From positions 249,017-307,854 of the forward strand of contig NZ_KB290714.1 in NCBI RefSeq assembly GCF_000318095.2: a DNA stretch of 58,838 nucleotides, given 5' to 3'. The notes below the pieces were generated by a model. The model was not told the DNA's origin. It searched no databases and was given only the letters and a program-made list of their open reading frames with translations. This document shows, piece after piece, positions 17,201 to 24,663 of this stretch. A program made the translations under genes and the position numbers. Every line of letters starts with the position of its first letter. Position 1 is the first letter of the stretch. This DNA comes from Alloprevotella sp. oral taxon 473 str. F0040 (lineage in GTDB: Bacteria; Bacteroidota; Bacteroidia; Bacteroidales; Bacteroidaceae).

Positions 17201-18163
17201 CTACAATCCCCAAGCTGAGAGAGTCAAGTTGTTTTCCACGCGCTGCTCCACATTGTCGGGAAGATTGTGGAAGAAGTTGATGCCAGTGAGCTTTTCCAGA
17301 GACGAAACACTCACGGCGTGTTTACCCATCTCCTTGGCTTTGCCTGTTTTACCATAATTTTTGTGTTCCATCCAGAAACCAATGCTGCTATATACACCAT
17401 TTTTTACCTTGAGCAGTGCCATAAAATAGTGGTGAGGAATGGGCATTCTACCATTGGCAGCGTAGCCGTAGGACGAAAGTGGGGAGAGTGCGCCACCTTT
17501 CACCACGTAGAGGGTGTCGGCAAAGGAGGAACTGCGGCCTAAATCTTGTACGAGTGTTTCCAGCCCTGTCCAGTATTGCTGGTTGAAACTAGCTAGTTGC
17601 GGACTCATATTGCCCATGTAGAAGGTTTGGTCGTTGGCTTCTCGGGAGAAAAGGCGGTCGGCTGAGGCGACTAAATGGCCGTGGTCGTAGCCGCGTCCGA
17701 AAGAAAGGTCGCTCGGAATGGCCCATGCTGTGGGGAGTTTGGGGTCGCGCGGATACTGAGGTTTGATTTTGTAGTCCTTACGTCCCACGGCCTTTAGACG
17801 GGTCTGGGCATCAAAGCGAAAGGCAACCCAGCGCGAATGGAAAGACTGTGGGAGATAAGCGTAGGCATAGTTGAGGATGGAGTCGCGTCCATGAGGATTG
17901 ATCACTCTGTGTACGATGAAGAGTTCGCCATTTTCTCCTGTGAGTGCAGGCATCTCTAAGCGTGCAGCATCGGCACGGCCTTGAGCATCTAGTTGTGGAG
18001 AAGGCTGAGGCGTGGGCTGGTCTGGAGTAGGATTGGGTTTTGGTTTGGGCTGGTCTGTGCCACCACCCCAGTTGATGTTGGGATTGTCTTCCTTTTCACA
18101 AGCGGTGAAGGTGAGACAGAGAGTGCAGAAGAGGGGAAGGATGAGACGAAAGTATCGAGTCAT
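17201..18163 (-). CDS. DNA/RNA non-specific endonuclease, lipoprotein
   Basis: Secreted, lipid-anchored nuclease of the NUC (beta-beta-alpha metal) family. The signal peptide ends in a lipobox (LTFTAC, Cys21), followed by an acidic start and a Pro-rich linker (about 35-60). The catalytic motif reads GYDHGHLVASADR: the family's DRGH has His in place of Arg but keeps the general-base His. The metal-binding Asn lies in MGNMSPQLASFNQQYW. It probably degrades extracellular DNA and RNA at the cell surface. It is the last gene of the TonB receptor-lipoprotein-nuclease run. The lipoprotein gene just upstream ends in a strong terminator, so this gene may be expressed at a lower level or by readthrough. 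Confidence 0.9.
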   Translation of the reverse strand: MTRYFRLILPLFCTLCLTFTACEKEDNPNINWGGGTDQPKPKPNPTPDQPTPQPSPQLDAQGRADAARLEMPALTGENGELFIVHRVINPHGRDSILNYAYAYLPQSFHSRWVAFRFDAQTRLKAVGRKDYKIKPQYPRDPKLPTAWAIPSDLSFGRGYDHGHLVASADRLFSREANDQTFYMGNMSPQLASFNQQYWTGLETLVQDLGRSSSFADTLYVVKGGALSPLSSYGYAANGRMPIPHHYFMALLKVKNGVYSSIGFWMEHKNYGKTGKAKEMGKHAVSVSSLEKLTGINFFHNLPDNVEQRVENNLTLSAWGL

Positions 18164-18251
18164 AGTTGAAGGGGTTGTGCTGTCCTGTGAAAATGTAGAG
18201 GAACTGGAGCGATTTCTGTAGTCTAAGTGCAGGTCGTGCCTAAGAAAAAGG

Positions 18252-18307
18252 CACGCAGGTGTGCCATAACATCAACTTTTAAGGTTGTTGCATGGCACAT
18301 CTGCGTG
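18252..18307 (-). terminator. Strong terminator between the lipoprotein and nuclease genes
   Basis: CACGCAGATGTGCCAT pairs with ATGGCACACCTGCGTG (16 bp, one G-U/mismatch) around a 24-base loop. On the minus strand it is followed by CCTTTTTCTT, a U-tract. Confidence 0.8.
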
Positions 18308-18330
18308 AGAGTACGGGAGAAGAGGTGGAA

Positions 18331-19470
18331 TTACTTCTTCATCAAAGTCGCGTTGTCAAGCAAGAATGCAGACTTACCTTTAGGAATCATTACTACGAGA
18401 CTGAGTGTAGTAGTGGCTTTGAGATCGAAAGTGTAGCTCACGAGTGTCCATTCTGAGGTGGAAAGATTGTCGTGGTAGCCCTTTTCATAGATGTAACTCT
18501 TGCTGTCTGCCTTGCCATCCTTGACAGGTACATAACCCAAACGGCAAGAAGAACCTGCGGCTGTGCCACGTACATAGGCAGAGAAGGTGTAGGTGCCAGC
18601 CTCGAGAGTGAGGTCTGCTGAACCTAAACGCTTGTTGAACTTATCTTCTCCACTTACTTCTACAGAATACTTACCTTCTTGTGCAGTGGTGCTTTGTTTC
18701 AATGTGGCATTGCCTGAGCCAGAAGTAGGTGACCAGTGCTCGGGTTTTCCATCGACCCAAGTCTCAAAGTTGCCATTTTGTAAGGCTTTTGCTGTGCCTG
18801 GGTTTGCAGGATTGTCTGGTTTGGGCGTGTCGGGTTTAGGAGCTTGTGTAGCCTTACCAGTAGCGACGGTGAGATTCTTGATTTCCCAGGTAGAACCGCT
18901 TTCGGCATTGGTGTTGTAGCGGAAGGCGATGCGTACCTTTTTACCCATCCAGGCAGCAGGGATGTCGAGGTCTGCCTTGGTAAAGGTCTTCCAATCGCGG
19001 CCTTCTGTCCATTGTTGGTTGAGCAATGTCCAACCTTCAGCAGCCTTTTGAGCATCGTATTTGTCGGTGATCAAGAGTTGCTGATTCTCGTCGCCCTTGT
19101 TGTAGCGGAACACATACTCAAAAGCTATGTGTGCTTCCTTCACCTTCGTGAGGTCGATTTCAGGGCTTACAAGGTAGTAAGTGCCGGCAGTAGTCTTCTT
19201 CGTTGCATTGTCGTAGCCCGAAGCCTTGGCTGTTTTGAAGTCAATCTTCCATTCACCTGCCCCTGCTGTGGTCACTGTAGTGAAAGCACCGAGTGAAGTG
19301 CTGAAACTCTCGCTCAGGAGCGTTCCGTCTTGTGGCGTGGTGGGGTTTGTAGGATTGGTTGGGTTTGTGGGCTGGTCAGGCTTCACATAAGGAGCTTCCA
19401 CCTTGGAACAAGCTGTGAAAGCGAGGCTGCATGCAGCGATAGCAACCAGGAACAGTGCGTTCTTTTTCAT
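18331..19470 (-). CDS. Choice-of-anchor/carbohydrate-binding-like lipoprotein
   Basis: A 379-residue lipoprotein (lipobox FTAC, Cys20) with a NPTNPTNPTTP spacer, a first jelly-roll domain (about 50-205; LLSESFSTSLGAFTTV start, YYLVSPEIDLTKVKEAHIAFEY, VRIAFRYNTNAESGSTWEI) of the choice-of-anchor J type, a second Pro-rich linker (DTPKPDNPANPG) and a second jelly-roll domain (about 228-379; LQNGNFETWVDGKPEHW). Such proteins sit on the cell surface and bind polymeric ligands. Its place between the DUF5689 lipoprotein and two nucleases suggests nucleic-acid binding here (inference). Confidence 0.8.
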   Translation of the reverse strand: MKKNALFLVAIAACSLAFTACSKVEAPYVKPDQPTNPTNPTNPTTPQDGTLLSESFSTSLGAFTTVTTAGAGEWKIDFKTAKASGYDNATKKTTAGTYYLVSPEIDLTKVKEAHIAFEYVFRYNKGDENQQLLITDKYDAQKAAEGWTLLNQQWTEGRDWKTFTKADLDIPAAWMGKKVRIAFRYNTNAESGSTWEIKNLTVATGKATQAPKPDTPKPDNPANPGTAKALQNGNFETWVDGKPEHWSPTSGSGNATLKQSTTAQEGKYSVEVSGEDKFNKRLGSADLTLEAGTYTFSAYVRGTAAGSSCRLGYVPVKDGKADSKSYIYEKGYHDNLSTSEWTLVSYTFDLKATTTLSLVVMIPKGKSAFLLDNATLMKK

Positions 19471-19511
19471 GTTTATAAGAGGTATTGAGGGTTATGATGT
19501 TGGAAGATGAA

Positions 19512-20498
19512 CTATTTGATGTCTTTGACATCGCGGAGTTGCAACTGCCAACCTGTATAATAGGTCATGACACCGGTATAGGTCTTTGCTACTTCTGGAA
19601 TCGGAAGGAAGGAAATAGCATTGCGCACGGAGGTGCGGAGGGAGAGGCTCACGGGATTGCTAGAATCTTGTGGCAGAAGCTGGAGAGGACGATCCACTCC
19701 AAAACCTGCATCATAGAGTTCTTTAGGGGCAAAAATCTTAGGTAGAGGTTCTTTTTTACCAGAGAGTTGTCCTGTAGCAGCCTTGTTTTTCTCTGCACCC
19801 ATCACGTCAGTGGCAATACCTCGCACAGACACGAGCATAGGATTAACAAGGTAGGATTGGTTGGCTCGATTGCTCAACCATTCCACACCCTCTTCAGAGG
19901 TGAAATCTCGCGGGGTAAGTTCAGGAGCCTGAGGGTTGGGGGTACCTACCAAGGTGATGTTGGTGGCCACATCATCCAAAAACATAGGACCGAGTCGGAG
20001 ATTGCCACTTGAGGTGTAGTAAGGACGTCCCACTTTAGGAGTCTTGCTGTAGTTGCCGATATAGAGATTCTTGAGGTTTACTCGAATGCGCTGCCCAAGT
20101 GGGAAGTAAGGATAGAGTTGAGAACTCTTAACACCTAGAGAAATGCACTGGTCATCGAGCTCTCCAGCCTTAGAACCAATGTGGCGTACGATGAGGGTTT
20201 GGTAGAGATTACCCGAAATGTCGTTGGCCACTACCACACCTTCAAAGAGGAGGTCTTCATTGACTTGTTTGAAAGTGTTGTTCTGGGTAAGCACAGAGCT
20301 AAACTTCTGTTTTACACTCAAAATATTAGTGTTGGCAGCTGGTAGCGATTGTGCTGTGATTTGAGGATGATGGGTAGCATCTTGGTTGTCTACACAGGCT
20401 GTGAAAGAAAGCACCATAGTAACGATGGAGCAAATGAGTGCTGCCATGCGAAACGACTGCCTAGCGATGTGAGCGAAGGGAGCATATATGTGATTCAT
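19512..20498 (-). CDS. DUF5689 domain lipoprotein
   Basis: A 328-residue lipoprotein. A hydrophobic segment (MAALICSIVTMVLSFTAC) ends in a lipobox Cys at about residue 35; a start at 20447 would give a shorter, more usual signal peptide. The body has the DUF5689 pattern (FEGVVVANDISGNLYQTLIVRH, then LGQRIRVNLKNLYIGNYSK), an OB-fold-like domain typically encoded next to extracellular nucleases and TonB receptors in Bacteroidetes. It lies 13 bases after the TonB receptor gene and probably is its surface partner, in the position a SusD protein takes in a glycan locus. Ligand unproven. Confidence 0.8.
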   Translation of the reverse strand: MNHIYAPFAHIARQSFRMAALICSIVTMVLSFTACVDNQDATHHPQITAQSLPAANTNILSVKQKFSSVLTQNNTFKQVNEDLLFEGVVVANDISGNLYQTLIVRHIGSKAGELDDQCISLGVKSSQLYPYFPLGQRIRVNLKNLYIGNYSKTPKVGRPYYTSSGNLRLGPMFLDDVATNITLVGTPNPQAPELTPRDFTSEEGVEWLSNRANQSYLVNPMLVSVRGIATDVMGAEKNKAATGQLSGKKEPLPKIFAPKELYDAGFGVDRPLQLLPQDSSNPVSLSLRTSVRNAISFLPIPEVAKTYTGVMTYYTGWQLQLRDVKDIK

Positions 20499-20511
20499 AA
20501 TGAACTATGCT

Positions 20512-23241
20512 TTAGAATTTGAAACCGAGGTTGAGGAAGAAGTTGAAAGCATTGGCATAATAGTACTTGGAATTGCGAGAGAACTTATAAGCCTTGCCTT
20601 CGCCTTTGGTGTAGACACCGCCACTTTCTCTGTAGTAGAAGTCCGAACGGTTTTGCTCGTAGCCACCTGTGCGTAGGTTGCTATTGTTGTTGATGTTCTG
20701 AAGAGAGAGGTTGATGCTCAAACTGCGGCCGTGTTTCAAGCGGATGAAGCGACCAATAGAAGCATCAATCATGATGCCACCCTTAAACTTCTCTTGAGCA
20801 GCAGCATAGCTAGCTACTTCCTGGCCTTGTGCATCGAAGAGTACGCCTCCATCTCGTTTCACATCAGCTTGCGCCACATCGAAGGCAGGGCGTCCTGCTC
20901 CGTCTGTGCCAGTAGCGGTGTAGAAGTGTCCATCGCCAGCATACGTGCTGTTGAGGCGACGATAGGGAGAAAAGTCTACATAAACTCGGTCATAATAGTT
21001 GGCCGAAGCCTCAAAGAACCACTGACCGAGGTTGTAGCGTGCGCCAAAACTCAAAGCAGTGAGAGGAGTGTTGCCCACGCGCATGTCTTTGGCTATCACA
21101 CGCAAGGGCATAGCCTGCTTGGTCACAGGGTTTACCACCGAATTGAGTTTTTCCAACTCTGCGGGATTCATACCCTCATAGCTCACTTGAGCATAAGGAT
21201 TGTTGGTGTAGTAGGCATCGCCCACTGAGGCCAATACTTGGAAAGAGAGGTTGGTCGTAGCTTGCCAGTTGAGGGCTGCCTCCACTCCGTAGTGCAACTT
21301 CTCCACATTGCTCATGGTGAGATAAGTGAAGGTAGATTGTTGGTCGTTGTAGAAAGCTGTTTGTTCCACCTGTCGGCCGAAGCGTGCATAGTATCCACTC
21401 ACTTTACCGACCACATTGCCAAAACGGAAAGCATAGCTAAGGTCAGCGTCATAAATATCCTCGTTAGTGAGATTATTGACAAAGTTGTTTTGTGCGCGTG
21501 GAGCGACAAAAGCGTTGCGTGAGAGAGGAGCTTGAGAAGCGGCACTGAGTCCAAGCGCGAATCGGTGATTGCGTGTGAGGTAGTAGGCCAATTCAGCCTT
21601 ACCACCGCCACCTAGGAATTGTGCATTGCCACTCTTACCGGAGCTATTATTCTAATAGCGACCATTCTCCATCAAGCCTTCACGTTCCATCGTAGTGCCA
21701 TCCACATGACCGCTCAAGTGCATTGTCCAATGGAGCGTAGAATATTGGTATTGTCCCCAAAGGTTGGCCTTGCGCACATTGATGTTGTAGTCATAACCAA
21801 AGCGGTCTCCCTTTTGGATCTGTCGATTTGGATGACGAAGGTCATTTTGTGCTTCAGGAGACTGCGCTCCATAGTCGTTCACCGCAAATTTATCGATGTC
21901 GGTGTAGCGTTCGCCGCCCAAAAGATCCGCCATCGTCTTGTAGTGCATGCCGTGAGTGCTGTTGAGCTGAACACCAAGGGCAACCTTCTGACGGGCATTG
22001 ATTGTATGGTTGAGCGTACTGCTCAGTGCAAATACATTCTGATCATTGTGACGACGTTCTTGATAGTAGAGAGCATCTCCGCCAATTGCGTTCTGCTGAC
22101 GATTCACGAAGTACATCTCGTCCCAATTTACCTGACGTGCAGCTTTACTGCCCGTCCAGCGGTTGTAAAGCAGCTGCCATTGCTCATAGAGGAAGGGTTC
22201 TTCGTCTACATTATGCTCCACACCTTGCTTCGTGCTGCGGCTGTCTTTCCACACGTTGCCCACACTCGAAGGAAGGTTCTTGTAGTAGTCTGGACGTGGG
22301 TCGGCAGCATTGCCATTCCAGCCTAGGGCTGTGTTGCTATACATATTATAGGTGTGCCCGATGCTGGTGGTCAAGCGCGAAGTGTGCTTGTCATTTTCCC
22401 AGTCCCAAGTCAAAATCGTGGTGGGTGAAAAGGCATGTACTATGCGGCTGTTGCGCACTTCTCCTCCCTGGTAGCCCCAGTTGGGGTTGTAGTAGTGCGA
22501 ATTAGCCAGCCAATAAGCCTCTTCTGTCGAAGCACCTTGTTGAGCACGGTCAGTGGGTGCACCATAGGTGACGAGAGAGAGTGAGTGATTAGCGTTGAAA
22601 CGCTTTTCTGCAGCCAAGAAATATGCAGCAGAGTTGTAGTAAGTACCCTCGATATATCCGCGAGTGGCTCCGCGATAGCCCACACTAGCTGCCCATGCCC
22701 AACCATTATTATTTAGTCCAGAAGCATAGGTGAAGAGTGCGCGACCGACATAGCTGCGATTAGCAGCAGAGAGAGAAATCTTGCGACCTTGTGCAAACTG
22801 CGAGGCACGTGTGTTGTAGCTCTGACCACCTCCGATGCCTACCACGCCAAAGGTGGCAAACTCATAGGGATCTACACCTTCGCGGTTGCGGGTGGCATCG
22901 TTCAAACCTCCGAGCGAAGCATAGTTGAAGCGTCCCATCTCCACATCGTTGAGGAGCAGACCATTCATGTAAGTCTGTGCATAACGATTGTCGTAGGCAC
23001 GAACGCGGAAACGCATCGGGCTAAAGCGGAATCCCACCTCGCTAAGGAAGGGATCGTTTTTAGCCACGATGGAAGACACCGCTTGCGAGGTGTTTACTTC
23101 GTCGTCAAGTTGTGATTCTGTGAAAGTGAAATCAGCATTATCATCATGTCCACTGATGGAGTCAGTGACCGCTGATTGAGCAAAACTTGTAGCGCCAGCC
23201 ACGCACCATGCACTCACTAGCAGGAATACTCCTTTTTTCAT
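20512..23241 (-). pseudogene. TonB-dependent receptor interrupted by one in-frame TAG
   Basis: An outer-membrane receptor that would be 909 residues long. Codons 1-529 (23241 to 21655) encode a signal peptide (ending ATSFAQ), a plug with RFRVRAYDNRYAQTYMNGL, and the first half of the barrel. Codon 530 (21654-21652) is TAG, and the same frame continues without any shift (NNSSGKSGNAQFLGGGG, then AYYLTRNHRFALGL) to a proper barrel end FFLNLGFKF. The C-terminal half has its own ATG only at 21591. TAG is the normal stop of dapB, lepB and the WYL gene here, so the code is not reassigned. Explanations are a nonsense mutation (for example CAG to TAG), a base error, or readthrough. It heads the nuclease/lipoprotein operon. 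Confidence 0.85.
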
Positions 23242-23353
23242 ATAATTGGGGAGGATAAATTGTGAGGTTTGTCTATACGTTTTCGTGAGAACTTATCACC
23301 TTTCAGGTCATATCTCAAGTAAAAGCTGCAAAGAGCAGCAAAATAGCATAGGG

Positions 23354-23361
23354 CAAAGATA
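23354..23361 (-). promoter_or_regulatory. -7 box for the TonB receptor/lipoprotein operon
   Basis: TATCTTTG on the minus strand, about 110 bases before the receptor ATG. It is back to back with the promoter of the EEP nuclease at 23489. Confidence 0.45.
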
Positions 23362-23488
23362 GAAAAAAAAGCAATATCCGCCGTCACTCCGTACTGATTT
23401 CGCACCTTTAGCAGGCGTTTTTTAATGTTTCCTCATATTTTCAGCAATTTCGCAGCCTGCAAAAGGCGTGTGTTCCAACAATCTTCCG

Positions 23489-23496
23489 TAATTTTG
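23489..23496 (+). promoter_or_regulatory. -7 box for the EEP nuclease gene
   Basis: TAATTTTG on the plus strand, 27 bases before the preferred ATG at 23524. It lies inside the longer open frame that begins at 23425 and therefore argues against that start. Confidence 0.5.
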
Positions 23497-23523
23497 CTGC
23501 GTAAACTATCCCTTTACTTCACA

Positions 23524-24663
23524 ATGAAGCAATTTATATTGGCTCTTTTTGTCCTCATCTTTGCAGGGCAACTCAGCTCCGCAGCACAAAAGAAGGTGCT
23601 CTATGGAGTGGCTTTCTACAATGTGGAAAACCTGTTTGACACCACCCATGATCCTGGTAAGAACGACCACGAGTTTCTGCCCACGGGTTCCTACCAATGG
23701 ACAGAACAAAAGTATCAATCTAAGCTCCGCAATATGGCACAGGTCATCAGCGAACTGTGCACAGAAATGGGAACTACCAAGTGCCCTGCGGGTGCTGCCG
23801 TAGTTGGATTGAGCGAAGTGGAGAACGAACACGTGCTCCGCGACCTTTTACAACAACCCTCATTGGTGAATCGTGGCTACAAAGCCATTCATTTTGAAGG
23901 TCCTGACCGTCGTGGCATTGATGTGGCTTTGCTCTACAACCCCAAGGCGTTTCAAGTGGAAAGCGCGATGCTCGTGCCTTTCGTTTATCGCGATTCATTG
24001 CAGCCCAATGTAGATTTAGGTTTCTATCAAGGAGCTGATGGGAAAATTCAGCCCTATTCCAATAAGAATGGTGAACTCATTGGCGATACCACCTATATCA
24101 CCCGCGGTTTCCTCACCGTCGGTGGTCGTCTAGGGGGTGAGAAGTTCTATTTTATTGTCAATCACTGGCCTTCTCGTGGTGCGCAAAGTCCTGTGCGTGA
24201 ACGTGCGGGCTACCAAGTGCGCAAGTTGAAAGAAGCCCTTTTGACACAAGATCCTGGTGCGCGCATCGTCATCATGGGCGACCTCAACGATGACCCCAAC
24301 AATGCCTCTGTAGATGCACCCGAATCGCTCGGAGCGAAGCACAAGGAGTCGGACATCACTTCGCCCGATGATTTGTACAATCCTTGGTGGGATATGCTCT
24401 ATCATAAAGGTATCGGCACACTCCACTATCGTGGCAAGTGGAATCTCTTCGATCAAATTATCTTCTCTGCAGGCCTTCTCGACAAGTCTCAGCCTGAACG
24501 TTTGCATCTGCTCACCCATGCTGTGTTCTCGCGCGACTATCTTCTTCAGCAGGAAGGTAAATATAAGGGAACTCCTAAGCGCACCACCGCTGGTGGCGTA
24601 TGGATCAATGGCTACTCCGACCACCTTCCCACGCAAATTTTCTTGGTGAAAGACGTGAAGTAA
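23524..24663 (+). CDS. Secreted endonuclease/exonuclease/phosphatase family nuclease
   Basis: A 379-residue exported nuclease-type hydrolase of the EEP superfamily. The signal peptide is MKQFILALFVLIFAGQLSSA. Motifs run in the expected order: VAFYNVENLFDT, GLSEVENE (metal Glu), RRGIDVALLYNP, NHWPSR, VIMGDLNDDP (catalytic Asp/Asn) and SDHLPTQIF (C-terminal Asp-His). The open frame extends upstream to 23425, but the start at 23524 gives the signal peptide and follows the promoter at 23489. It is divergent from the TonB receptor operon, which carries a second nuclease, so a joint role in extracellular nucleic-acid breakdown is inferred. Confidence 0.88.
   Translation: MKQFILALFVLIFAGQLSSAAQKKVLYGVAFYNVENLFDTTHDPGKNDHEFLPTGSYQWTEQKYQSKLRNMAQVISELCTEMGTTKCPAGAAVVGLSEVENEHVLRDLLQQPSLVNRGYKAIHFEGPDRRGIDVALLYNPKAFQVESAMLVPFVYRDSLQPNVDLGFYQGADGKIQPYSNKNGELIGDTTYITRGFLTVGGRLGGEKFYFIVNHWPSRGAQSPVRERAGYQVRKLKEALLTQDPGARIVIMGDLNDDPNNASVDAPESLGAKHKESDITSPDDLYNPWWDMLYHKGIGTLHYRGKWNLFDQIIFSAGLLDKSQPERLHLLTHAVFSRDYLLQQEGKYKGTPKRTTAGGVWINGYSDHLPTQIFLVKDVK

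Follow-up and report, generated by a model that had tools for sequence, protein, structure and literature searches.

A conserved TonB-type receptor and DUF5689 lipoprotein locus with exported nucleases as a probable Bacteroidales DNA-uptake system

Introduction

Competent Gram-negative bacteria are generally thought to import DNA across the outer membrane by means of a type IV pilus and a secretin. For the naturally competent Bacteroidales species Porphyromonas gingivalis, the passages of one study drawn on here state that the outer-membrane DNA route is unclear, that a pilus-like fibre is not involved, and that ComEA and ComEC are essential for competence (PMC11532111). The closest described relatives of the genes treated below come from Riemerella anatipestifer, in which a transposon screen for natural transformation named RA0C_RS04915, annotated as carboxypeptidase regulatory-like, and the adjacent RA0C_RS04920, which has DUF5689 and DUF5017. 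Markerless deletion of either gene brought transformation below the detection limit, and a DUF1343 protein was also essential (PMC8459023). Here we describe a five-gene locus at positions 17201-24663 of a 58,838-nucleotide stretch of Alloprevotella sp. oral taxon 473 str. F0040 (the whole stretch being called the window), which encodes a divergent TonB-dependent-type receptor, two lipoproteins and two exported nucleases. The locus is probably the Bacteroidales form of a TonB-dependent outer-membrane DNA importer for natural transformation.

The excerpts of the Riemerella study used here name RS04910 once in the main text, as the upstream gene, and do not discuss the neighbouring nuclease; one passage describes the homologues as widely distributed in Bacteroidetes, and another places the RS04915 homologue only in Flavobacteriaceae (PMC8459023). 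A second study, again as far as the consulted portion goes, reported reduced transformation in both tonBA and tonBB mutants of R. anatipestifer, with only tonBB lowering iron uptake (PMC8383284). A literature search by locus tag returned only the original paper, broader searches showed no follow-up study of RA0C_RS04915/RS04920 among the papers listed, and a search for DUF5689 found PMC8459023 as the sole paper in the library searched.

Homology with the Riemerella transformation pair

Four of the five genes lie on the minus strand, in the transcription order receptor, DUF5689 lipoprotein, choice-of-anchor J/CBM_4_9 lipoprotein and PF01223 (NUC) nuclease lipoprotein, and the fifth, encoding a secreted protein of the endonuclease/exonuclease/phosphatase (EEP) family, diverges from them on the plus strand (Table 1). 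All five assignments of the original prediction, which was made from the sequence alone, were borne out by domain or profile matches, except that the receptor proved not to be intact. Its placing of the DUF5689 protein where SusD would stand agrees with the position of that gene directly after the receptor.

Both members of the Riemerella pair have homologues at this locus. The window DUF5689 protein matched a profile of the Riemerella-type family at E 1.4e-46 over residues 17-328, and the receptor matched a profile of 45 Weeksellaceae/Flavobacteriaceae-type receptors at E 2.2e-62 with its N part and 3e-29 with its C part. With the R. anatipestifer receptor as query in the window genome, the window receptor came out on top at 193 bits, ahead of a canonical paralogue at 88.6 bits. 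The forward direction gave one match (E 1e-80) in genome G351, whose receptor shares 93% identity with the one in the R. anatipestifer record L166; the window receptor and the Riemerella-type receptor are thus best matches in both directions. Record L166 belongs to strain CCUG25054, which is not the strain of PMC8459023, and carries comEC, two genes, an EEP gene, the receptor (935 amino acids, aa) and DUF5689 (469 aa) in this order, the receptor being the fourth gene after comEC when open reading frames (ORFs) of at least 120 aa are counted. Because this spacing fits the locus tags RS04895, RS04915 and RS04920, we infer that RS04910 is the EEP nuclease. The window EEP protein is 31% identical (E 6e-53) to the EEP protein adjoining the R. 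anatipestifer receptor.

In the proposed mechanism, the DUF5689 lipoprotein, with the anchor-J protein as its split-off partner domain, would bind free DNA and hold it at the receptor, and TonB energy would drive the DNA via the receptor into the periplasm. Cutting or trimming of the DNA at the surface would fall to the EEP and NUC nucleases, and a ComEA-like protein, ComEC and DprA/RecA would subsequently draw in one strand for recombination. Among these steps, we infer DNA binding by DUF5689, passage of DNA through the barrel, the roles of both nucleases and the carry-over of function to Bacteroidales. The window genome carries ComEC and DprA, together with a ComEA-like protein of 258 aa that has an N-terminal hydrophobic stretch and helix-hairpin-helix (HhH) motifs; its standing as counterpart of RS02645 or ComEA was judged by eye. 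As a separate observation, two TAA codons were found inside the ComEC match (contig 1, 162198-162944) of G175, a genome that has the receptor locus.

Conservation across Bacteroidota

For the unbiased counts, loci were collected by receptor similarity alone, and DUF5689 was scored within 1.5 kb and EEP within 6 kb. A profile of 15 receptor sequences was run against a phylum sample of 247 Bacteroidota genomes, of which 39, the window genome included, scored above 390 bits, a threshold chosen by us. Paralogues fell below 230 bits; the nearest, G287 (227.6 bits), lies between the groups, was counted as a paralogue and has no DUF5689 at its locus. Among the 38 other genomes, DUF5689 was present in 37 and EEP in 23. 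Furthermore, the receptor was observed in 116 of the 119 genomes of the family of G072, taken as Weeksellaceae, and 20 loci from 19 of these genomes (regions from 20 of 119 listed matches) contained DUF5689 in every case and EEP in 19. Named loci with a usable receptor, mostly from Weeksellaceae, included DUF5689 in 63/63 and EEP in 61/63 after one receptor fragment (L227) had been left out of 64. In the plasmid collection, DUF5689 lay beside the receptor in all four loci, which were drawn from 4 of 6 matching records. These sets overlap in part, and the Weeksellaceae and named sets share at least one locus (L152 and L201).

DUF5689 was found near none of five paralogous receptors, and it is missing from locus L120. 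EEP occurred near three of the five paralogues, a count unusable as a control since those three regions had been cut around the true locus. The original prediction had named a lack of conserved clustering in related genomes as the result that would tell against it; the clustering is conserved well beyond chance in the receptor-collected sets (37/38, 20/20 and 63/63).

Additional loci were picked by DUF5689 itself, so that finding DUF5689 next to the receptor in them does not count as independent evidence. Regions were taken from 39 of 42 other genomes with DUF5689 (G011, G025 and G032 being left out), giving 40 loci, of which three (L068-L070) lacked such a receptor. In the genus of the window organism, the receptor adjoined DUF5689 in all 21 loci of the window type, with NUC in 17 and EEP within 6 kb in 12. 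Prevotella sp. oral taxon 299 carries the receptor, DUF5689, a further lipoprotein (recognised by eye) and a NUC protein, with no EEP within 6 kb, and other named carriers are Bacteroides finegoldii (Bacteroidales) and Aureibacter and Flammeovirga (Cytophagales). The Bacteroidales and Cytophagales receptors go at least beyond the Flavobacteriaceae-only statement of PMC8459023. The system is a variant of a machine that genetic work first revealed in Riemerella; the present analysis traces it to Bacteroidales and Cytophagales and links it to nucleases.

Organisation of the locus

Table 1. Features of the locus, with positions in the window
Feature	Position	Strand	Basis
Divergent TonB-dependent-type outer-membrane receptor gene, interrupted	20512-23241	-	Profile homology, no Pfam/NCBIfam match
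Receptor N part, 529 aa, signal peptide	21655-23241	-	ORF
Receptor C part, 379 aa	20512-21651 (stop included)	-	ORF, same frame as N part
In-frame TAG within receptor gene	21652-21654	-	ORF reading
DUF5689 lipoprotein, lipobox ending at Cys35	19512-20498	-	PF18942 E 1.7e-25
Choice-of-anchor J + CBM_4_9-like lipoprotein	18331-19470	-	NF038128 E 2.8e-9; PF02018 E 1.1e-11
NUC-family DNA/RNA non-specific endonuclease lipoprotein	17201-18163	-	PF01223 E 3.8e-36
Secreted EEP protein	23524-24663	+	PF19580 E 5.7e-98
Divergent intergenic region	23242-23523		One TAnnTTTG -7-like element per strand, consensus match only
-7-like element TAnnTTTG	23354-23361	-	Consensus match only
-7-like element TAnnTTTG	23489-23496	+	Consensus match only

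The motif TAnnTTTG, which we take to be the Bacteroidota -7 element, occurs once on each strand between the receptor and EEP genes. These putative elements are compatible with the back-to-back promoters of the original prediction, as consensus matches that do not prove them. In the whole window, the motif was observed 53 times against 32 expected, a number reached by 1 of 100 shuffles. The genes flanking the cluster are presumably RuvB and HisS, and the name HisS was borne out by protein comparison. Among the 12 of 100 matching records listed, the HisS protein shares 67-74% identity with four from Bacteroidales and no more than 39% with the rest, in keeping with a place of the window genome in this order. 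A tally of the whole genome returned one DUF5689 gene (at E 0.001), two PF19580 proteins and two PF01223 proteins, with one of each at the locus.

The interrupted receptor

The reading frame of the receptor is split by an in-frame TAG, and both parts lie in one frame. Recoding of TAG as an amino acid was rejected, as TAG is the ordinary stop of 10 of the 30 non-overlapping window ORFs that reach 250 aa or more, counting the broken receptor and at least one antisense ORF. In the sibling genome G033 (locus L046) the receptor is intact, and its pieces are 91-93% identical to the window receptor. Relative to this sibling, non-synonymous changes affect 28 of 380 codons after the stop and 49 of 529 before it. 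This about equal conservation on both sides points to a stop that is recent or a sequence error. Most receptor relatives examined are intact; split frames were also observed in L116, L215 (Chryseobacterium angstadtii) and L071, so that receptor loss, or sequence error, recurs across genomes.

No Pfam or NCBIfam model matched either receptor piece at E 0.01, and Plug and barrel domains were not recognised in them. The receptor-family profile finds canonical TonB paralogues at E 1e-20 or better, and the two that were scanned both carry Pfam Plug; the window receptor thus belongs to a divergent branch related to TonB receptors. Against solved structures, the profile gave weak partial matches (E 0.0016-0.0063) to a SusC homologue fragment, scaffoldins and NOMO2. 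A tree of 111 receptors, which did not include the broken window receptor, separated the family as a single clade from the five paralogues (support 0.987); within it, the Flavobacterium and Chryseobacterium/Riemerella groups stand opposite a side that holds the window genus and others. The carboxypeptidase regulatory-like domain is present in the receptors of L060, L065, L103 and L245 and was not found in the window receptor or that of the sibling L046; it is an annotation label on which the homology does not depend.

Nucleases and lipoproteins

The EEP protein likely starts at the ATG at 23524, which yields a signal peptide, rather than at 23425. Its residues E100, D128, R130, H214, D253, N255, S365, D366 and H367 are conserved in at least 97% of 135 sequences, and H163, N185, N194 and E202 of the NUC lipoprotein in at least 93% of 29 sequences, the window proteins being included in both sets; the catalytic residues are among these. 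The NUC protein matches the solved nucleases 1zm8/2o3b, EXOG and Endonuclease G, and the EEP protein had no match among solved structures at E 0.001. Additionally, a second and shorter EEP gene (322-324 aa) was observed within about 4 kb of the receptor in L105, L112 and L127.

The original prediction's choice of nucleic acid as the probable cargo is favoured by the recurrence of secreted EEP and NUC proteins beside the receptor and DUF5689, and by two further arrangements. Two Cytophagales loci have Endonuclease I next to the receptor-DUF5689 pair, and a single protein of Flammeovirga kamogawensis (L244, 11774-13966) consists of DUF5689 fused to Endonuclease I, which also supports a role in DNA uptake. 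The neighbour of this fusion is another DUF5689 protein, which additionally carries DUF6359 and a lamin-tail domain. A fusion of the NUC domain with a fimbrillin-like domain was observed in B. finegoldii and L055.

In the window, DUF5689 and anchor-J are two neighbouring lipoproteins, the latter with an FTAC lipobox at Cys21 (by eye), whereas in Riemerella and many others (L052-L056, L060, L166) the two domains are fused in one protein. This alternation of split and fused forms suggests that the two lipoproteins act together. DUF5689 is the proposed DNA-binding partner of the receptor. Hints only of an OB-fold were obtained, one member resembling PF01336 (E 7e-4) and 1 of 45 an OB-domain family (E 0.023). 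Against solved structures, the R. anatipestifer protein found nothing better than E 1.6, and a profile of 45 DUF5689 sequences matched no more than 19 residues of an antifreeze protein (E 0.0018). The PF18942 model also matches a Bacillus subtilis protein above its cut-off. Furthermore, the R. anatipestifer DUF5689 protein (L166, 12840-14249) meets the cut-off of the NCBIfam model that bears the name of M949_1556. This gene is cited in a review, in the part consulted, for antigenicity and pathogenicity; one gene family may have been studied under the two names.

Competing explanations

The main rival, and the purpose given in the original prediction, is nutrient scavenging, in which surface nucleases would cut DNA or RNA, the lipoproteins would bind the fragments and the receptor would import oligonucleotides for phosphate, nucleosides or carbon. 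A TonB receptor with a surface lipoprotein is the polymer-import layout in Bacteroidota, and this was counted for scavenging together with the two exported nucleases with conserved catalytic residues. Transformation in Riemerella has also been described, in the source portions seen, as responding to phosphate and peptone, with R. anatipestifer and R. columbina reacting in opposite ways. The nutritional purpose is nevertheless unlikely, since the homologues are essential for transformation in Riemerella, its loss being their proven phenotype, and the shared neighbour families listed contain no catabolic gene. An all-against-all comparison of 40 related loci showed no nucleotidase, nucleoside permease, SusD or other catabolic gene in the widely shared families, and a limited look at the shared neighbour families saw no phosphatase, nucleotidase or nucleoside transporter; the survey was read from ORF starts, among the 40 families listed, and not by Pfam. 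Glycan-active enzymes and dedicated regulators were likewise not seen among families common to many of the 40 loci, whose neighbours were not all Pfam-scanned. One importer could serve both scavenging and transformation, and DNA uptake for transformation accounts for the purpose of the locus better than feeding does.

A second rival holds that the receptor-lipoprotein pair imports a metal complex, a peptide or a glycan, that the effect on Riemerella transformation is indirect, and that the nucleases adjoin the pair for a different reason, such as turnover of biofilm DNA or defence against neutrophil DNA nets. The anchor-J lipoprotein has a CBM_4_9-like domain, an iron chelator is described in part of the literature as cutting R. 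anatipestifer transformation about 100-fold, and the link to M949_1556 means that DUF5689 mutants may be pleiotropic. Both deletions, however, fell below the detection limit, whereas the tonB mutants are described as decreased in transformation, and the fusion of DUF5689 to a nuclease in Flammeovirga also speaks for a nucleic-acid cargo, so that we regard this explanation as quite improbable. That the locus is a decaying or strain-specific remnant without present function in this organism, as the in-frame stop and the split receptors of L116, L215 and L071 might suggest, is very improbable given that DUF5689 was matched in 33 of the 37 genomes of the genus, that only one of the 29 receptor loci examined there is split (L071, with three others cut by contig ends), and that the codons after the stop are about as conserved as those before it.

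Several points weigh against DNA uptake for transformation as the function of the locus. The support comes from the Riemerella homologues, from which a function in Bacteroidales would carry over by homology, and the window receptor and DUF5689 protein share only about 20-30% identity with that pair. DUF1343 (PF07075) was not matched in the window genome, which is 96.7% complete, and the importer is probably inactive in the sequenced genome unless the stop is a sequence error. EEP cannot be a universal part of the locus, as it is missing within 6 kb from 15 of the 38 phylum-sample loci (12 of these from one genus, g31) and from 9 of the 21 window-type loci (3 of them with short flanks). At the chosen threshold, the receptor is absent from 208 of the 247 sampled genomes. 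The co-occurrence of ComEC was rejected as a test, because ComEC is present in 39/39 locus-bearing genomes and in 243/247 overall and so discriminates nothing. Flavobacterium johnsoniae did not transform in the laboratory, according to the part of that report drawn on (PMC7965970), and Flavobacterium is among the homologue carriers listed in the Riemerella study (PMC8459023, in part); the locus genes alone may therefore not make a strain competent. Iron supply, in addition, confounds the effect of tonBB on transformation, as far as the source portion goes.

Cassette types and transfer

Two cassette types were observed at the same hisS-linked site within one genus. The window type (L035-L047) has split lipoproteins and a divergent EEP gene, and the second type (L052-L058) has a fused lipoprotein, with EEP downstream and NUC upstream. 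Receptor identity is 36.5% between the types and 64-69% within them (9 and 5 sequences), in contrast to hisS identities of 72.9% (between types) and 74-76% (within types). On the hisS tree, some nodes of which are weak, members of the two types are interleaved. This contrast, together with the interleaving, suggests replacement of the whole cassette at this site.

In genus g164, 3 of 6 sampled genomes carry a second cassette besides the native one. Its receptor scores about 1130 bits against a profile mainly of the window order, and two of these receptors (L150 and L151) cluster in the receptor tree with the second type described above, which looks like transfer between orders. A further cassette, with fimbrillin-NUC and fimbrillin-CBM proteins, was identified on B. 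finegoldii plasmid 46 (L245), a small circular record of 27 kb; it is possibly a mobile copy or an assembly artefact.

Comparison with known systems

The locus suggests how Bacteroidales may get DNA through the outer membrane. More broadly, a TonB-powered transporter with a DUF5689 lipoprotein lid and surface nucleases might form a general Bacteroidota outer-membrane DNA-uptake machine that takes the place of the pilus and secretin of other Gram-negative bacteria, occurs across Bacteroidales, Flavobacteriales and Cytophagales, passes between lineages and fills the gap at the outer membrane in Bacteroidales competence. We advance this generalisation tentatively, as one that could well hold but that falls a little short of being probable. 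Conservation of the receptor-DUF5689 pair and its nucleases in Bacteroidales and Cytophagales narrows an open question to a few gene deletions, and it would also have a bearing on gene spread within communities of these bacteria.

SusC/SusD-type loci, including polysaccharide utilisation loci and RagAB, resemble the present one in having a TonB-type receptor followed by a surface lipoprotein, but the window DUF5689 protein belongs to a different family from SusD/RagB. Membership in this class was rejected, as the window proteins contain no SusD/RagB, SusC or Plug match. The extracellular DNases ExeM/NucH (NF033681) share with the window EEP protein the EEP fold and export, but the latter scores 19 bits against a cut-off of 300 and belongs to PF19580. 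EndA of Streptococcus pneumoniae is a surface nuclease of the beta-beta-alpha-metal type that works in DNA uptake. Compared by description only, it is like the window NUC protein a surface nuclease, and it differs in being Gram-positive and membrane-bound. The comEA/comEC/comF system of P. gingivalis has counterparts in the ComEA-like and ComEC genes of the window genome, but according to the passages used it acts at or behind the inner membrane (PMC11532111), whereas the window locus would act at the outer membrane.

The Riemerella pair remains the closest system described. In both, a homologous receptor is directly followed by a DUF5689 lipoprotein on the same strand, an EEP nuclease lies divergently upstream of the receptor, and ComEC, DprA and an HhH protein are encoded in the genome. 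The window locus differs in its interrupted receptor, which is without a recognisable carboxypeptidase-regulatory domain, in dividing DUF5689 and anchor-J between two proteins where Riemerella has one, in adding a NUC lipoprotein, in the location of comEC on another contig, and in the lack of a DUF1343 match in the genome.

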